Below are positions 10,411-24,036 of a stretch of 64,000 nucleotides of DNA, piece after piece. The position numbers and the translations under genes are program-made. The notes under the pieces were generated by a model that saw only the letters and a list, made by a program, of their open reading frames with translations, was not told where the DNA came from and did no database searches. This stretch comes from Rhodobium gokarnense (GTDB lineage: Bacteria > Pseudomonadota > Alphaproteobacteria > Rhizobiales > Rhodobiaceae): contig NZ_JAOQNS010000001.1 in the NCBI RefSeq assembly GCF_025961475.1, positions 1 through 64,000 of the forward strand, in the 5' to 3' direction. Each line of letters starts with the position of its first letter. Position 1 is the stretch's first letter.

Positions 10411-10686
10411 ATGACCGATCGAGTGCGACCGCGAGTTAAATACGTCATTGGTCCGGATGGAAGTCCTCTGACCATCGCCGATCTGCCGCCCGTCGATACC
10501 AAACGATGGGTGATCCGCCGCAAGGCGGAAGTGGTCGCTGCGGTGCGTGGTGGTCTCCTATCCCTTGAGGAAGCGTGCCAGCGCTACACCTTGACGATCG
10601 AGGAGCTGCTGTCATGGCAGAATTCCATCGACCGTCATGGTCTCGCCGGCTTGCGGGCAACGCGGATACAGCAGTATCGCAACTGA
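10411..10686 (+). CDS. sciP: SciP (DUF1153), inhibitor of the cell-cycle regulator CtrA
   Basis: The ATG at 10411 gives a 91-residue protein with the family start PRVKYVIGPDGSPLTIADLP. A helix-turn-helix region follows (KRWVIRRKAEVVAAVRGGLL, then SLEEACQRYTLTIEELLSWQ) and the usual end LRATRIQQYR. In Caulobacter SciP binds CtrA and DNA and blocks CtrA-driven transcription, including that of flagellar genes, during part of the cell cycle. Here it sits between flgD and fliF, each side bounded by a terminator, so it is a single-gene unit with its own promoter. The frame is open further upstream, but homologs begin at this methionine. Confidence 0.93.
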   Translation: MTDRVRPRVKYVIGPDGSPLTIADLPPVDTKRWVIRRKAEVVAAVRGGLLSLEEACQRYTLTIEELLSWQNSIDRHGLAGLRATRIQQYRN

Positions 10687-16411: not shown

Positions 16412-18589
16412 ATGACCGATGTGACGGCAGGCGACGTTTCGGCACAGGCGCCGGCGCAACCGTCCGCTTCCGGCGAGGTCGGCAAGCCCAGGGCCGCCGG
16501 CCCGAGCGCCGGCATGATCACTCTGTCGCGCATCATCGATACGCTGAGGCGCGGCGACCTCCTGCTCGCCGCCGGCGTGATGACCATCCTCGTCCTCCTC
16601 ATCCTGCCGATGCCGGCAATGATGCTGGACGTGTTCCTGGCCATCTCGATCATCTTCTCGGTCCTCATCCTGATGACCGCGCTGTTCATCCAGACGCCGC
16701 TGGAGTTCTCCGCCTTTCCCACGGTACTGCTGATCGCGACGATGCTGCGGCTGGCGCTGAACCTTGCCTCGACGCGGCTGATCCTTGCCAACGGCCACGA
16801 GGGGACCGACGCCGCCGGCTCGGTCATCCAGGCCTTCGGCAGCTTCGTCATGCGCGGCAATTTCGTCATCGGCATGATCGTCTTCGCCATCCTGGTGATC
16901 GTCAATTTCATCGTCATCACCAAGGGTTCGGGGCGCATCGCCGAGGTCGCGGCGCGCTTCACCCTCGATGCCATGCCCGGCAAGCAGATGGCGATCGATG
17001 CAGACCTTTCCGCCGGTCTCATCGACGAGGGCCAGGCGCGCGAGCGGCGCAAGAACCTGGAGGACGAATCGGCCTTCTTCGGCGCCATGGACGGCGCCTC
17101 CAAATTCGTGCGCGGCGACGCCATCGCCGGCCTCCTCATCACCTTCATCAACATCGTCGGCGGTATCATCATTGGCGTTGCGCAGCAGGACCTGTCGCTT
17201 GCCGACGCCAGCCAGGCCTATACGCTGCTGACGGTCGGCGACGGCCTCGTCAGCCAGATCCCGGCGCTGATCGTCTCCACGGCCGCCGGCATGCTGGTCT
17301 CCAAGGCGGGCGTGACGGGCGCCGCCGACAAGGCGCTGGTCGCCCAGCTCTCCGGCTATCCGAAGGCGCTCGGCGTCTCCTCCTTCGTCATGGTGGTAAT
17401 GGCGGCGCTGCCGGGCATGCCGGTGATCCCGTTCCTGACGCTCGCCGCAGGGGCCGGCTACATGGCCTATGTGTCGGACCGCAAGAACCGGGTGCAGGAA
17501 GCGGAAAAGGTGGTCGCGGAGGCCAAGGCCCAGGCGCCGGCGGAACCGGCCGAGCCGCCGATCAGCGAAGTCCTGAAGATGGACGATCTTCGGATCGAGC
17601 TCGGCTACGGCCTGTTGCCGCTGATCAACAAGGCGGACGGGCCGGACCGGCTGACCGACCAGATCAAGGCGCTGCGGCGCCAGCTCGCGGCCGAGCTCGG
17701 CGTCGTCATGCCGCCGGTGCGCATCCTCGACAACGTCCAGATCGAGGCCAACGACTACATCATCAAGATCAAGGAGGTGGAGGCCGGGCGCGGCATCGTC
17801 TATCCGAACCTTTATATGGCGATGGACCCGATGGGCAAGCAGATCGACCTGCCGGGCGCCCACACCACCGAGCCGACCTTCGGACTGCCGGCGACCTGGA
17901 TCGAGGCGTCGTTGCGCGAGGAGGCCTCGATCAAGGGCTATACGGTGGTCGATCCTTCGACGGTGATGTCGACCCACCTGACGGAGACCCTCAGGGCCAA
18001 CGTCTCCGACCTCCTGTCCTATGCCGACGTCCAGAAACTGCTGTCCGAACTGCCGAAGGAGCAGGGCAAGCTGGTGGAGGACATCGTGCCCGGCCAGATC
18101 ACCGTCTCCGGCATCCAGCGGGTGCTGCAGGCGCTGCTCGCCGAGCGGGTGTCGATCCGCGACCTGCCGTCGATCCTGGAAGGTATTGCCGAGGCGACCG
18201 GCTTCACGCGCTCGCCGCAATCGATCGCGGAACATGTGCGCACGCGCCTTGCCCGGCAGATCTGCGCCCAGTACCTGGCCCCGGGCGGCTACCTGCCGCT
18301 GATCGCCCTGTCGCCGAAATGGGAGCAGGAATTCGGCGAGGCGCTGGTCGGCGAGGGCGACAACCGCCAGCTCGCCATGGCGCCCTCCAAGCTGCAGGAA
18401 TTCGTCGTCGCCGTGCGCGATGCCTTCGAGGAGGCGGCGCGCATGGGCGAGGTGCCGGTGCTCCTGACTTCGCCGCCGATCCGCCCCTTCGTGCGCTCCA
18501 TCGTGGAACGCTTCCGCTCGCACACCACGGTGATGAGCCAGAGCGAGATCCACCCGCGGGCGCGGCTGAAGACGGTGGCGAGCATCTAG
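16412..18589 (+). CDS. flhA: flagellar export gate protein FlhA
   Basis: The 725-residue protein forms the ring of the flagellar type III export gate. The first 340 residues hold about eight membrane helices, and the FHIPEP signature loop is visible (GSGRIAEVAARFTLDAMPGK followed by QMAIDADL). The rest is the cytoplasmic domain that binds late chaperone-substrate complexes (LRIELGYGLLPLINKADG, VEDIVPGQITVSGIQRVLQ). Length is normal. The ATG at 16412 is the first after the promoter signals. It is separated from flbD by 138 bases, so it has its own transcription unit. Confidence 0.95.
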   Translation: MTDVTAGDVSAQAPAQPSASGEVGKPRAAGPSAGMITLSRIIDTLRRGDLLLAAGVMTILVLLILPMPAMMLDVFLAISIIFSVLILMTALFIQTPLEFSAFPTVLLIATMLRLALNLASTRLILANGHEGTDAAGSVIQAFGSFVMRGNFVIGMIVFAILVIVNFIVITKGSGRIAEVAARFTLDAMPGKQMAIDADLSAGLIDEGQARERRKNLEDESAFFGAMDGASKFVRGDAIAGLLITFINIVGGIIIGVAQQDLSLADASQAYTLLTVGDGLVSQIPALIVSTAAGMLVSKAGVTGAADKALVAQLSGYPKALGVSSFVMVVMAALPGMPVIPFLTLAAGAGYMAYVSDRKNRVQEAEKVVAEAKAQAPAEPAEPPISEVLKMDDLRIELGYGLLPLINKADGPDRLTDQIKALRRQLAAELGVVMPPVRILDNVQIEANDYIIKIKEVEAGRGIVYPNLYMAMDPMGKQIDLPGAHTTEPTFGLPATWIEASLREEASIKGYTVVDPSTVMSTHLTETLRANVSDLLSYADVQKLLSELPKEQGKLVEDIVPGQITVSGIQRVLQALLAERVSIRDLPSILEGIAEATGFTRSPQSIAEHVRTRLARQICAQYLAPGGYLPLIALSPKWEQEFGEALVGEGDNRQLAMAPSKLQEFVVAVRDAFEEAARMGEVPVLLTSPPIRPFVRSIVERFRSHTTVMSQSEIHPRARLKTVASI

Positions 18590-21481: not shown

Positions 21482-21961
21482 CTATCCCTTGACGTCGATC
21501 GGCGTCGCGCCGACGGCATCGACAAGGGCGTTGGGATCGCAGGAAAAGACGCATTTCGGCGTTCCGGCCGCCGCCCAGACTACGTCGAAGCCGAGAAGGT
21601 CGGTGTCGATGAAGGTCTGAAGGGGCGTTGCATGGCCGAGCGGCGGGATGCCGCCGATGGCAAAGCCGGTGAGGGCGCGCACGTCGTCGGCGTCGGGCCG
21701 GGTCAGGGCCTCGCCGAGATGTTTCGCGACGCCTTTTTCGTTCACGCGGTTGGCGCCGGAGACGAGGAAGAGATAGGGCTTTTTCGAGGTCTTGCCGCGA
21801 AACACCAGCGACTTGACGATCTGGGCGACCGTGCAGTTGCAGGCGGCGGCCGCTTCCTCGGCGGTGCGGGTCGAGGCCGGCATTTCCATGACGGTGACGT
21901 CGAGCCCGGCATTGGCGGCGGCCTCGCTGACGAGCTGTGCGCTTTTCGGCAATTCGGTCAT
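21482..21961 (-). CDS. YbaK/ProX-type aminoacyl-tRNA deacylase
   Basis: The 159-residue product is a single YbaK/EbsC-type editing domain. Diagnostic parts are AAAACNCTVAQIVKSLVFR with the conserved lysine, FLVSGANRVNEKGVAKHLGE and TGFAIGGIPPLGHATP. Such enzymes hydrolyse mischarged tRNAs such as Cys- or Ala-tRNA(Pro). The ATG at 21961 follows GGGAG and matches family starts. It lies 24 bases upstream of mtnA on the same strand, so the two may be co-transcribed. Confidence 0.85.
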   Translation of the reverse strand: MTELPKSAQLVSEAAANAGLDVTVMEMPASTRTAEEAAAACNCTVAQIVKSLVFRGKTSKKPYLFLVSGANRVNEKGVAKHLGEALTRPDADDVRALTGFAIGGIPPLGHATPLQTFIDTDLLGFDVVWAAAGTPKCVFSCDPNALVDAVGATPIDVKG

Positions 21962-22104: not shown

Positions 22105-22119
22105 TTAACAATTCCTTAA
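22105..22119. promoter_or_regulatory. perfect CtrA box TTAA-N7-TTAA
   Basis: TTAA-CAATTCC-TTAA matches the full CtrA consensus with exact spacing. It lies 33 bases before the ATG at 22153. It is also 144 bases from the divergent deacylase start, but the distance favours the plus-strand gene. Confidence 0.65.
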
Positions 22120-22152
22120 GCAGGGGGGGCCGATCGGGCAAAGGACCGGGTC

Positions 22153-23055
22153 ATGACGATGGAAGACAACGTGGTGCCGCACGAGCGCATTCGCACGCTT
22201 CGCGAAGCCGTGCAGCAGGCGCGCATTGCCGAGGCCGACCGCTCCGATGCGCTGGAACAGCGCCGGCAGACGGAACAGGTGCGCCTGGAACTCGTGGCGC
22301 GCGAGCTTGAAGGCGTCTTTGCCGAGGCGCGGGACAAGAGCGACCAGTTCATCTGCGAGATTTCCGCCGGCGCGACGCCGCGGCTGTGGATCGACGCCAC
22401 CTCCCACGTGGTGATGGCGAGCGACATCCACACCTACCGGTTCCTGAAGGACACGCGGCTCGGCCGCATCGTCCTTGCCGAGACGGACGACACCGGCGCA
22501 CTCGCTGACCGCGTCACGGTCTATATCGCGGAGCGGGTCGTCGACCTGGAGCGGGCGGTGGAGGCCGACTGGCAGATCTGGCGGCTGAACGAGCAGGCGC
22601 AGAAGGAAGCGGCGGAAGCCCAGAAGCGCGACGAGGAAAAGGCGGCAGAGGCAAAGGCGCGGGACGAGAAAGCGGACGCTGCGAACACGCCGCGGCTCGA
22701 CGGGCCGGCGGGAAGGCCGCGCGAGCGGGGCCATGCCGGCTTTGCCTTCCTCTTCGGCCTCATTCTCGGCTGCGCGGCGCTGGCGGTCTGGATGCAGGCC
22801 TCCGGGCAGTACGATTTCCGCCAGCACCTGAAGTTCCTGCAGACGAGCGACACGGCCTCGTTTCCGCAATTGACGGCCGAGCCGGCACCAGAGACGGCAA
22901 CGGCAGCCGAGGAACCGGCGGCGGGCGACGAAGAAGCGGCGGAAGCGCCCGAAGAAACCGGCAGCATCCCGGAACTGGCCGGTGCGCCGACGTCTCAGCC
23001 TGAGGCGGCGACGGGTTCCGAGATGTCTTCGGAAACGGTGGCGCCCGGCGAATAG
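22153..23055 (+). CDS. unknown single-pass membrane protein with coiled coil
   Basis: I do not recognise a named family. The 300-residue protein starts with a charged helical region (5-60) likely to form a coiled coil. A folded segment follows (about 65-130, with ATPRLWIDATSHVVMASDIH and YRFLKDTRLGRIVLAETDD). Next come an Ala/Glu/Lys-rich helix (140-180), one membrane helix (about 196-215, GFAFLFGLILGCAALAVWM) and an acidic, Pro/Ala/Glu-rich tail of 85 residues. There is no signal peptide, so the large N-terminal part is probably cytoplasmic and the tail periplasmic. The perfect CtrA box directly upstream suggests cell-cycle control. Its 3' end overlaps the convergent phosphoesterase gene by 61 bases. 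Confidence 0.7.
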   Translation: MTMEDNVVPHERIRTLREAVQQARIAEADRSDALEQRRQTEQVRLELVARELEGVFAEARDKSDQFICEISAGATPRLWIDATSHVVMASDIHTYRFLKDTRLGRIVLAETDDTGALADRVTVYIAERVVDLERAVEADWQIWRLNEQAQKEAAEAQKRDEEKAAEAKARDEKADAANTPRLDGPAGRPRERGHAGFAFLFGLILGCAALAVWMQASGQYDFRQHLKFLQTSDTASFPQLTAEPAPETATAAEEPAAGDEEAAEAPEETGSIPELAGAPTSQPEAATGSEMSSETVAPGE

Positions 23056-23945
23056 ACGAGGCGCCGGCTGCGGATTTGCGATACCGGCCGGCCGGGCAGG
23101 GTGAGCCCGCGCTCGGTCATGGCGCAGGTCCAGCCATCGTCCGTTTGCTCCACATCGAAGAGGTTGTAGCGGGCCGCCGGGCGCTTGTCGCCGGGGGCGT
23201 TGGAGGCCGACGGCACGCCGACGATCGGCACCGGGCGCGTATTGCCGTCGGTCCATACGAGGCTGTCCACATGGGTGTGGCCGTGCAGCACCAGCTCGGC
23301 GCCGGCCTCGCGGATGGCACGACTGAAATGGCCCGTGCCGATGAGGCGGCGGTGCCAGTATTTGCGCGAGCGGACCGGCGGGTGGTGGATGAGGACGACG
23401 CGGAAGAGGCCTTCCGCACCGAGGCGCTCCAGCGCCCGGCAGAGGGCGCGGGCCTGACCGGTGTCGAAAACGCCAGTCGCCATGAAGGGGGCGGAGGCAT
23501 TGGCGCTGGACAGCGCGACGATGCCGAGCGGACCGCGCCGGCGCACGAACGGAAAGTCGTTGCCGTCGAGGGCCGGGGTGTCTCCGGTCATGAACGGGCG
23601 CCAGGACTTTATCGCCCGCTTCACCGAGCCGGGCACATAGGCGTCGTGATTGCCGGGAATGGCGGTGACGTCATGGGGCGGCCCGAGGCTTTCCAGCCAG
23701 GCCTTTGCCGGTTCGATCTCGGCCTTCAGCGACAGATTGACGAGATCGCCGGTGACCGCGATGTGGTCGGGCTGCTGGCTCGCCATGTCGGCGAGGAGGG
23801 CCATCAGGTGGTCGGCCGTATGGGTTCCGGACCGGTTGCGGTGCCAGTTGACGTAGCCGATGACGCGCTTTGACATCAGCTCGCGGATGCGCGCGTCCGG
23901 CAGCGGGCCGAGATGGGGATCTGAGAGATGGGCGAGGCGATACAT
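22995..23945 (-). CDS. calcineurin-type metallophosphoesterase
   Basis: The 316-residue protein has the metal-ligand blocks of calcineurin-like phosphoesterases in order: LAHLSDPHLG (D-x-H), HIAVTGDLVN (GD), AIPGNHDAYV (GNHD), VVLIHHPP (H) and VLHGHTH (GHxH). It should be a soluble di-metal phosphodiesterase or phosphatase, with unknown substrate. The ATG at 23945 directly precedes the first motif. Another at 23954 would add three residues. The gene is convergent with the CtrA-box gene and shares 61 bases with it. Confidence 0.88.
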   Translation of the reverse strand: MYRLAHLSDPHLGPLPDARIRELMSKRVIGYVNWHRNRSGTHTADHLMALLADMASQQPDHIAVTGDLVNLSLKAEIEPAKAWLESLGPPHDVTAIPGNHDAYVPGSVKRAIKSWRPFMTGDTPALDGNDFPFVRRRGPLGIVALSSANASAPFMATGVFDTGQARALCRALERLGAEGLFRVVLIHHPPVRSRKYWHRRLIGTGHFSRAIREAGAELVLHGHTHVDSLVWTDGNTRPVPIVGVPSASNAPGDKRPAARYNLFDVEQTDDGWTCAMTERGLTLPGRPVSQIRSRRLVYSPGATVSEDISEPVAASG

Positions 23946-24036
23946 GCCCCGCATCTAGTGCCTGGGTCGCCCGGCGTCTACCCTTTGGTCAAGGGGAGCC
24001 AGGCGGACCGGCACGAGCAGTGCCCGGAGCCGTCGT

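Follow-up and report, generated by a model that had tools for sequence, protein, structure and literature searches.

PodJ, MipZ, ZitP and PopZ are polar and division proteins under the control of CtrA. The promoters of PodJ and MipZ are treated in work on Caulobacter, parts of which also place the CtrA box near −35 of the start site where it serves activation, put it at −14 for ctrA P3, a repressed promoter, and report that full boxes mostly mark activation (PMC4287350). ChIP-seq of CtrA in Hyphomonas gave the consensus TTAA-N7-TTAAC, with 211 of 222 sites intergenic, according to the sections of the report drawn on here (PMC7200025), and the portions used of a study of S. meliloti count among the direct targets the mcp genes, cell envelope genes and 19 hypothetical genes, most of the latter without a Caulobacter ortholog (PMC4433202). 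Much of the CtrA regulon in the Hyphomicrobiales is unnamed. We describe here a locus of Rhodobium gokarnense encoding what appears to be a CtrA-controlled membrane protein of an unnamed family, for which a role in the cell cycle or in polarity is a good candidate.

The gene lies in a window of 64 kb, by which we mean the whole stretch of DNA that was analysed; the features discussed are collected in Table 1. As the preliminary description had noted, an exact TTAA-N7-TTAA, TTAACAATTCCTTAA (TTAA-CAATTCC-TTAA), stands 33 bases ahead of the ATG (22153) of a 300-residue ORF, its 5′ end being 48 bases from that codon. It is the sole occurrence of the pattern in the window, for which dinucleotide shuffles give an expectation of 0.03, and 3 of 100 shuffles contain one. 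The second half-site is followed by a G, whereas in the Hyphomonas consensus it is followed by a C. A scan for promoters and terminators found no sigma-70 promoter, and the one terminator-like site that it placed within the coding sequence is not above the shuffle level.

Table 1. Features of the locus, with positions in the 64-kb window
Feature	Position	Strand	Basis
SciP	10414..10686	+	DUF1153
FlhA	16412..18589	+	
Divergent aminoacyl-tRNA editing (YbaK-like) gene, far side of box	21482..21961	-	Pfam tRNA_edit
CtrA-type box TTAA-N7-TTAA	22105..22119	+	Exact match; N7 enriched in the genome and upstream of orthologs
Putative ribosome-binding site AAAGGA	22140..22145	+	Read from the sequence
300-residue membrane protein, undescribed family	22153..23055	+	ORF; orthologs (counts in text)
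N-terminal helical part, residues 16-62	22198..22338	+	AlphaFold2 model
Five-strand sheet, residues 69-111	22357..22485	+	Conservation and AlphaFold2 model
Long helix (stalk), residues 114-178	22492..22686	+	AlphaFold2 model
Membrane helix, residues 193-217	22729..22803	+	Model and hydrophobicity
Acidic Pro/Glu-rich tail, residues 218-300, Rhodobium-specific	22804..23052	+	Low pLDDT; long in three same-genus sequences
Convergent metallophosphoesterase	22995..23954	-	Pfam Metallophos; neighbour cluster (count in text)

Study of the whole R. gokarnense genome revealed 39 sites of the N7 type, against 2 for N6 and 6 for N8, while the reversed control pattern stayed flat at 24, 21 and 23 sites for the same three spacings; a spacing of 7 is therefore a regulatory signal in this organism. 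By our own GC3-based ORF calls, 36 of the other 38 sites are intergenic. Among 21 proteins sampled from those adjoining these 38 boxes, the Pfam matches include flagellin, FliO, three methyl-accepting chemotaxis proteins (MCPs), PilZ, GGDEF, LuxR and LuxI, and one gene for outer-membrane efflux and one of the MotA/TolQ/ExbB type also adjoin boxes. This set resembles the CtrA regulons of the literature; HU, an RTX-repeat protein and an alcohol dehydrogenase are unlike CtrA targets, and 5 of the 21 proteins have no Pfam family at 1e-5. An ortholog of the regulator itself is encoded on the same contig (C1:591046-591717), 84% identical across 224 residues to a CtrA sequence, and SciP, recognized by its DUF1153, is encoded in the window as had been claimed.

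A few other perfect boxes of this genome are worth recording in their own right. On contig C8, a LuxR-type gene has its own box 43 bases ahead of the called start (L150:1548-1562) and the adjoining LuxI-type gene has another, 13 bases ahead of its called start (L150:2543-2557), an arrangement by which quorum sensing looks tied into the CtrA network in the genus Rhodobium. Another box on the same contig (L149:2027-2041) lies between an ABC ATPase gene resembling ftsE and a zinc-ribbon gene (Pfam Zn_ribbon_4), whose product is presumably ZitP-like. On contig C6 a box (L142:1999-2013) is found 75 bases ahead of a gene with a beginning like that of a PAS-type sensor kinase, the PAS matches being weak and all below the cut-off.

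The preliminary description had proposed conservation of the box upstream of orthologs as the test of its reading, and the reading passes it. The orthologs were gathered as 99 rows. With start codons chosen by rule and redundancy removed, these gave 81 upstream stretches, each 110 bases long; removal of 22 rows (9 repeat genomes under other locus numbers and 13 additional f41 family members) left a set of 77 loci. In the latter set the N7 box, with at most one mismatch and within 110 bases upstream, is present at 31 loci belonging to 10 of 26 families, while other spacings from 3 to 12 give 1 to 8 loci and 1 to 3 families, N8 being the second commonest (8/77). The 81 stretches behave alike: 35 carry the N7 box with at most one mismatch, against 1 to 5 for other spacings between 2 and 15 and 10 for N8, and in 29 of them it falls between −80 and −15, where shuffles average 0.64 and reach 4 at most. 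When neighbouring genes of the same regions serve as controls, the box is found upstream of 26 of 60 orthologs vs 7 of 218 neighbours; the corresponding Fisher value of 4e-14 overstates the evidence because the rows are related, and for the same reason none of these box counts (35/81, 26/60, 31/77) is made of independent observations. Bases outside the search pattern are consistent with the N7 box: G precedes the first half-site in 26 of the 31 cases and the second in 19, and C follows the second in 18. Two orthologs outside the 99 rows add one box with one mismatch (L019) and one locus without any (L016).

Closer to R. gokarnense, the relative Rhodobium orientis (96% identity over 156 residues) keeps both TTAA cores, the two substitutions within the box being in the spacer, and a box with one mismatch occurs in the third Rhodobium genome. 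Over the whole set, the full box with at most one mismatch is absent from 46 of the 77 ortholog loci. A quick tree built on 76 rows, of which 31 have the box, requires at least 17 changes in its presence. Taken with the 31 positive loci, this indicates that control through the box is widely shared yet not universal, and that it turns over.

Could the box nevertheless be unrelated to the gene, that is, be there by chance, serve the divergent YbaK-like gene or belong to another regulator? TTAA-rich DNA is commoner between genes, and in the window the box does sit between divergent genes. The specificity of the spacing and the low rate at the control genes argue against such an explanation, and so do the layouts. 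In the 26 box-bearing regions the called upstream gene is in tandem in 14 (within 200 bases in 10), divergent and not YbaK in 9, and divergent YbaK in 3. These neighbour and layout counts rely on our own GC3-based ORF scripts, which miss some genes, a short YbaK perhaps among them; as a measure, they picked up the gene itself (cluster 0) in 54 of 61 regions. A site serving the YbaK-like gene is thus unsupported by the layouts, and we regard the whole explanation as very improbable. Upstream neighbours of the orthologs vary between regions, and the box is kept in 10 of 26 families while those genes change. The box being of the CtrA type, as first described, both by its spacing in the genome and by its recurrence at a similar place ahead of many orthologs, the gene is very probably under CtrA control and a member of the CtrA regulon.

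The sign of this control is a separate matter. Activation by CtrA would be our first choice, since full boxes mostly activate in Caulobacter and since three MCP genes of R. gokarnense have boxes as well (43, 27 and 6 bases ahead of their called starts), mcp genes being direct targets in S. meliloti. Given these 48 bases between the ATG and the 5′ end of the box, activation would need a leader of only about 9–15 bases. Because the 33-base gap leaves such a very short leader, repression, with a start site just past the box, has to be considered too, and we see it as the less probable sign, though by no means a negligible one.

As to the protein, it had been presented as belonging to no recognised family, and our searches agree. 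No convincing match was obtained for it in Pfam, NCBIfam, PHROGs or the sequences of the PDB, housekeeping families included, and searches with 76 members of the family returned scattered weak matches in Pfam (best E-value 0.0023, for one member) and in NCBIfam (best 0.0041, again for one member). Comparison of structures by Foldseek gave nothing at E ≤ 0.001 in the PDB, the best values being 0.29 for the whole model and 0.40 for an 85-residue domain, and nothing at that threshold in BFVD for the whole model, whose best row reached 0.04. Polo-box and XRCC4 folds, which share with the model a small sheet beside a long helix, were set aside because their Foldseek matches were not significant. 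A tblastn search of a plasmid collection gave no match, and among the titles and openings of abstracts surveyed there is no description of the protein.

The distribution of the gene is that of an order-level family. Orthologs were found in 28 of 61 relatives, and a profile search, scoring at most 7 candidates per genome, placed the gene in 241 of 394 sampled Hyphomicrobiales genomes (83 of 137 genera), nearly always as one copy. Across the class, a profile search of 289 sampled genomes, members of the order included, scoring at most 10 candidates per genome, brought two matches, both inside the order.

In one respect the anatomy differs from what had been proposed: in place of a coiled-coil part, AlphaFold2 predicts a folded core made of a helix, a five-strand sheet and a long helix, with a pLDDT of about 97 over residues 21–170, and the 85-residue domain modelled alone has a mean pLDDT of 93.6. 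The most conserved residues (P76, R77, W79, D81, D91, Y95, R96, G104, R105 and E110) are mainly in the sheet. The claim of one membrane helix and no signal peptide holds, since the protein has a single hydrophobic segment, with its best 19-mer at residues 196–214, and none near the N-terminus. Of 76 orthologs, 75 have such a segment and none has a second one; in 70 of the 76, at most 20 residues separate the 19-mer from the end of the protein. Strictly tail-anchored proteins lack a signal peptide and carry a single membrane helix at their extreme C-terminus. The window protein continues for 86 residues past the 19-mer and is therefore not tail-anchored in this strict sense. The N-terminal flank of the membrane segment carries a net positive charge in 59 of the 76 orthologs, which fits a domain located in the cytosol.

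The acidic Pro/Glu tail singled out in the preliminary description is present (about residues 218–300), but it is not a trait of the family, as the short C-termini of most orthologs indicate. Long acidic tails were seen in three sequences of the genus, and three further rows have 28–31 residues; the tail is thus a Rhodobium addition. Over positions 22995–23055 its final codons run, tail to tail, into the end of the convergent ORF for the metallophosphoesterase, and the tail may stem from a stop codon shifted into the neighbour gene.

This metallophosphoesterase is the commonest neighbour of the orthologs (51 of 61 regions), and its persistence is one of the points in favour of a different function under the same control: the gene could be CtrA-controlled and timed with the cell cycle and yet act in the envelope or at the surface (transport, lipid, polysaccharide or stress), with no part in organising a pole or a division site. 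That the direct CtrA regulon of S. meliloti holds cell envelope genes, as the consulted portions of PMC4433202 state, goes in the same direction, and so do the efflux and MotA/TolQ/ExbB-type genes adjoining boxes in R. gokarnense. However, the neighbour is convergent and not in an operon with the gene, and a protein with a single membrane segment that matches no enzyme or transporter family is not what such a function would lead one to expect. An envelope function of this kind seems to us rather unlikely, though it is the rival to be taken most seriously.

Another possibility is an accessory role in motility, chemotaxis or the pilus, as for many CtrA targets. FlhA and SciP are encoded within the same window, flhA lies near the gene there and in four further regions, and the flhA-like cluster (cluster 12) was met in 5 of 61 regions, all of family f41, the flhA of the window being outside the stretch used for this count. 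Over the 394 genomes of the order, however, FlhA (310 in total) accompanies the gene in 186 of 241 genomes (77%) and is also encoded in 124 of the 153 genomes that lack the gene (81%), so that gene and FlhA are not associated; 55 genomes have the gene without FlhA and 29 have neither. In addition, the box is retained in four of the genomes lacking FlhA (L090, L091, L093 and L094). A purely flagellar gene is rejected on the ground that the gene persists in those 55 genomes, and an accessory role of this sort, largely refuted for flagella, is very improbable as a whole. The gene and its control appear, from these genomes, to outlive the flagellum.

The reading that we prefer is the following. 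CtrA would bind the full box just ahead of the start and so time transcription, which would most likely be switched on in predivisional cells. A single helix, C-terminal in nearly all orthologs, would hold the product in the inner membrane, and the predicted elongated helix-sheet-helix domain would face the cytosol. Most likely the protein would be a scaffold or adaptor, non-enzymatic and probably oligomeric, that recruits a partner to the membrane when cells of the Hyphomicrobiales divide, grow at the pole or assemble their envelope. The role as membrane-tethered scaffold or adaptor is suggested by anatomy and regulation, and we consider the arguments for and against it to be about balanced; the same even weight is what we would give to the reading in full, in which timing by CtrA, anchoring in the membrane and a cytosolic scaffold or adaptor function in one of these processes come together. 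Only tentatively do we go one step farther and propose that the protein is the first to be described from a family specific to the order, that its fold has no counterpart in solved structures, and that it acts as a CtrA-timed membrane-tethered scaffold that would organise the new pole or the division site and be kept where flagella are lost. With the gene in 83 of 137 genera and the box in 10 of 26 families, the locus would lead by a short, testable route to a cell-cycle output that is new and particular to an order of bacteria growing at the pole; the fold of the family is worth solving.

Compared with the CtrA regulons of Caulobacter, S. meliloti and Hyphomonas, the locus has the same intergenic TTAA-N7-TTAA in a genome encoding both CtrA and SciP; it differs in that its family is without a named member in the libraries searched. 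With PodJ, MipZ, ZitP and PopZ it would share a cell-cycle timing through the CtrA box, the anchoring or scaffold role being a proposed analogy, but it has no Pfam or NCBIfam match to these proteins and was found in one order in the samples. A further lead is provided by the Rgs growth-pole proteins of S. meliloti (PMC7327166, PMC6107284, PMC7822825), which may resemble the family in their order-level distribution and in their anchoring in the inner membrane.
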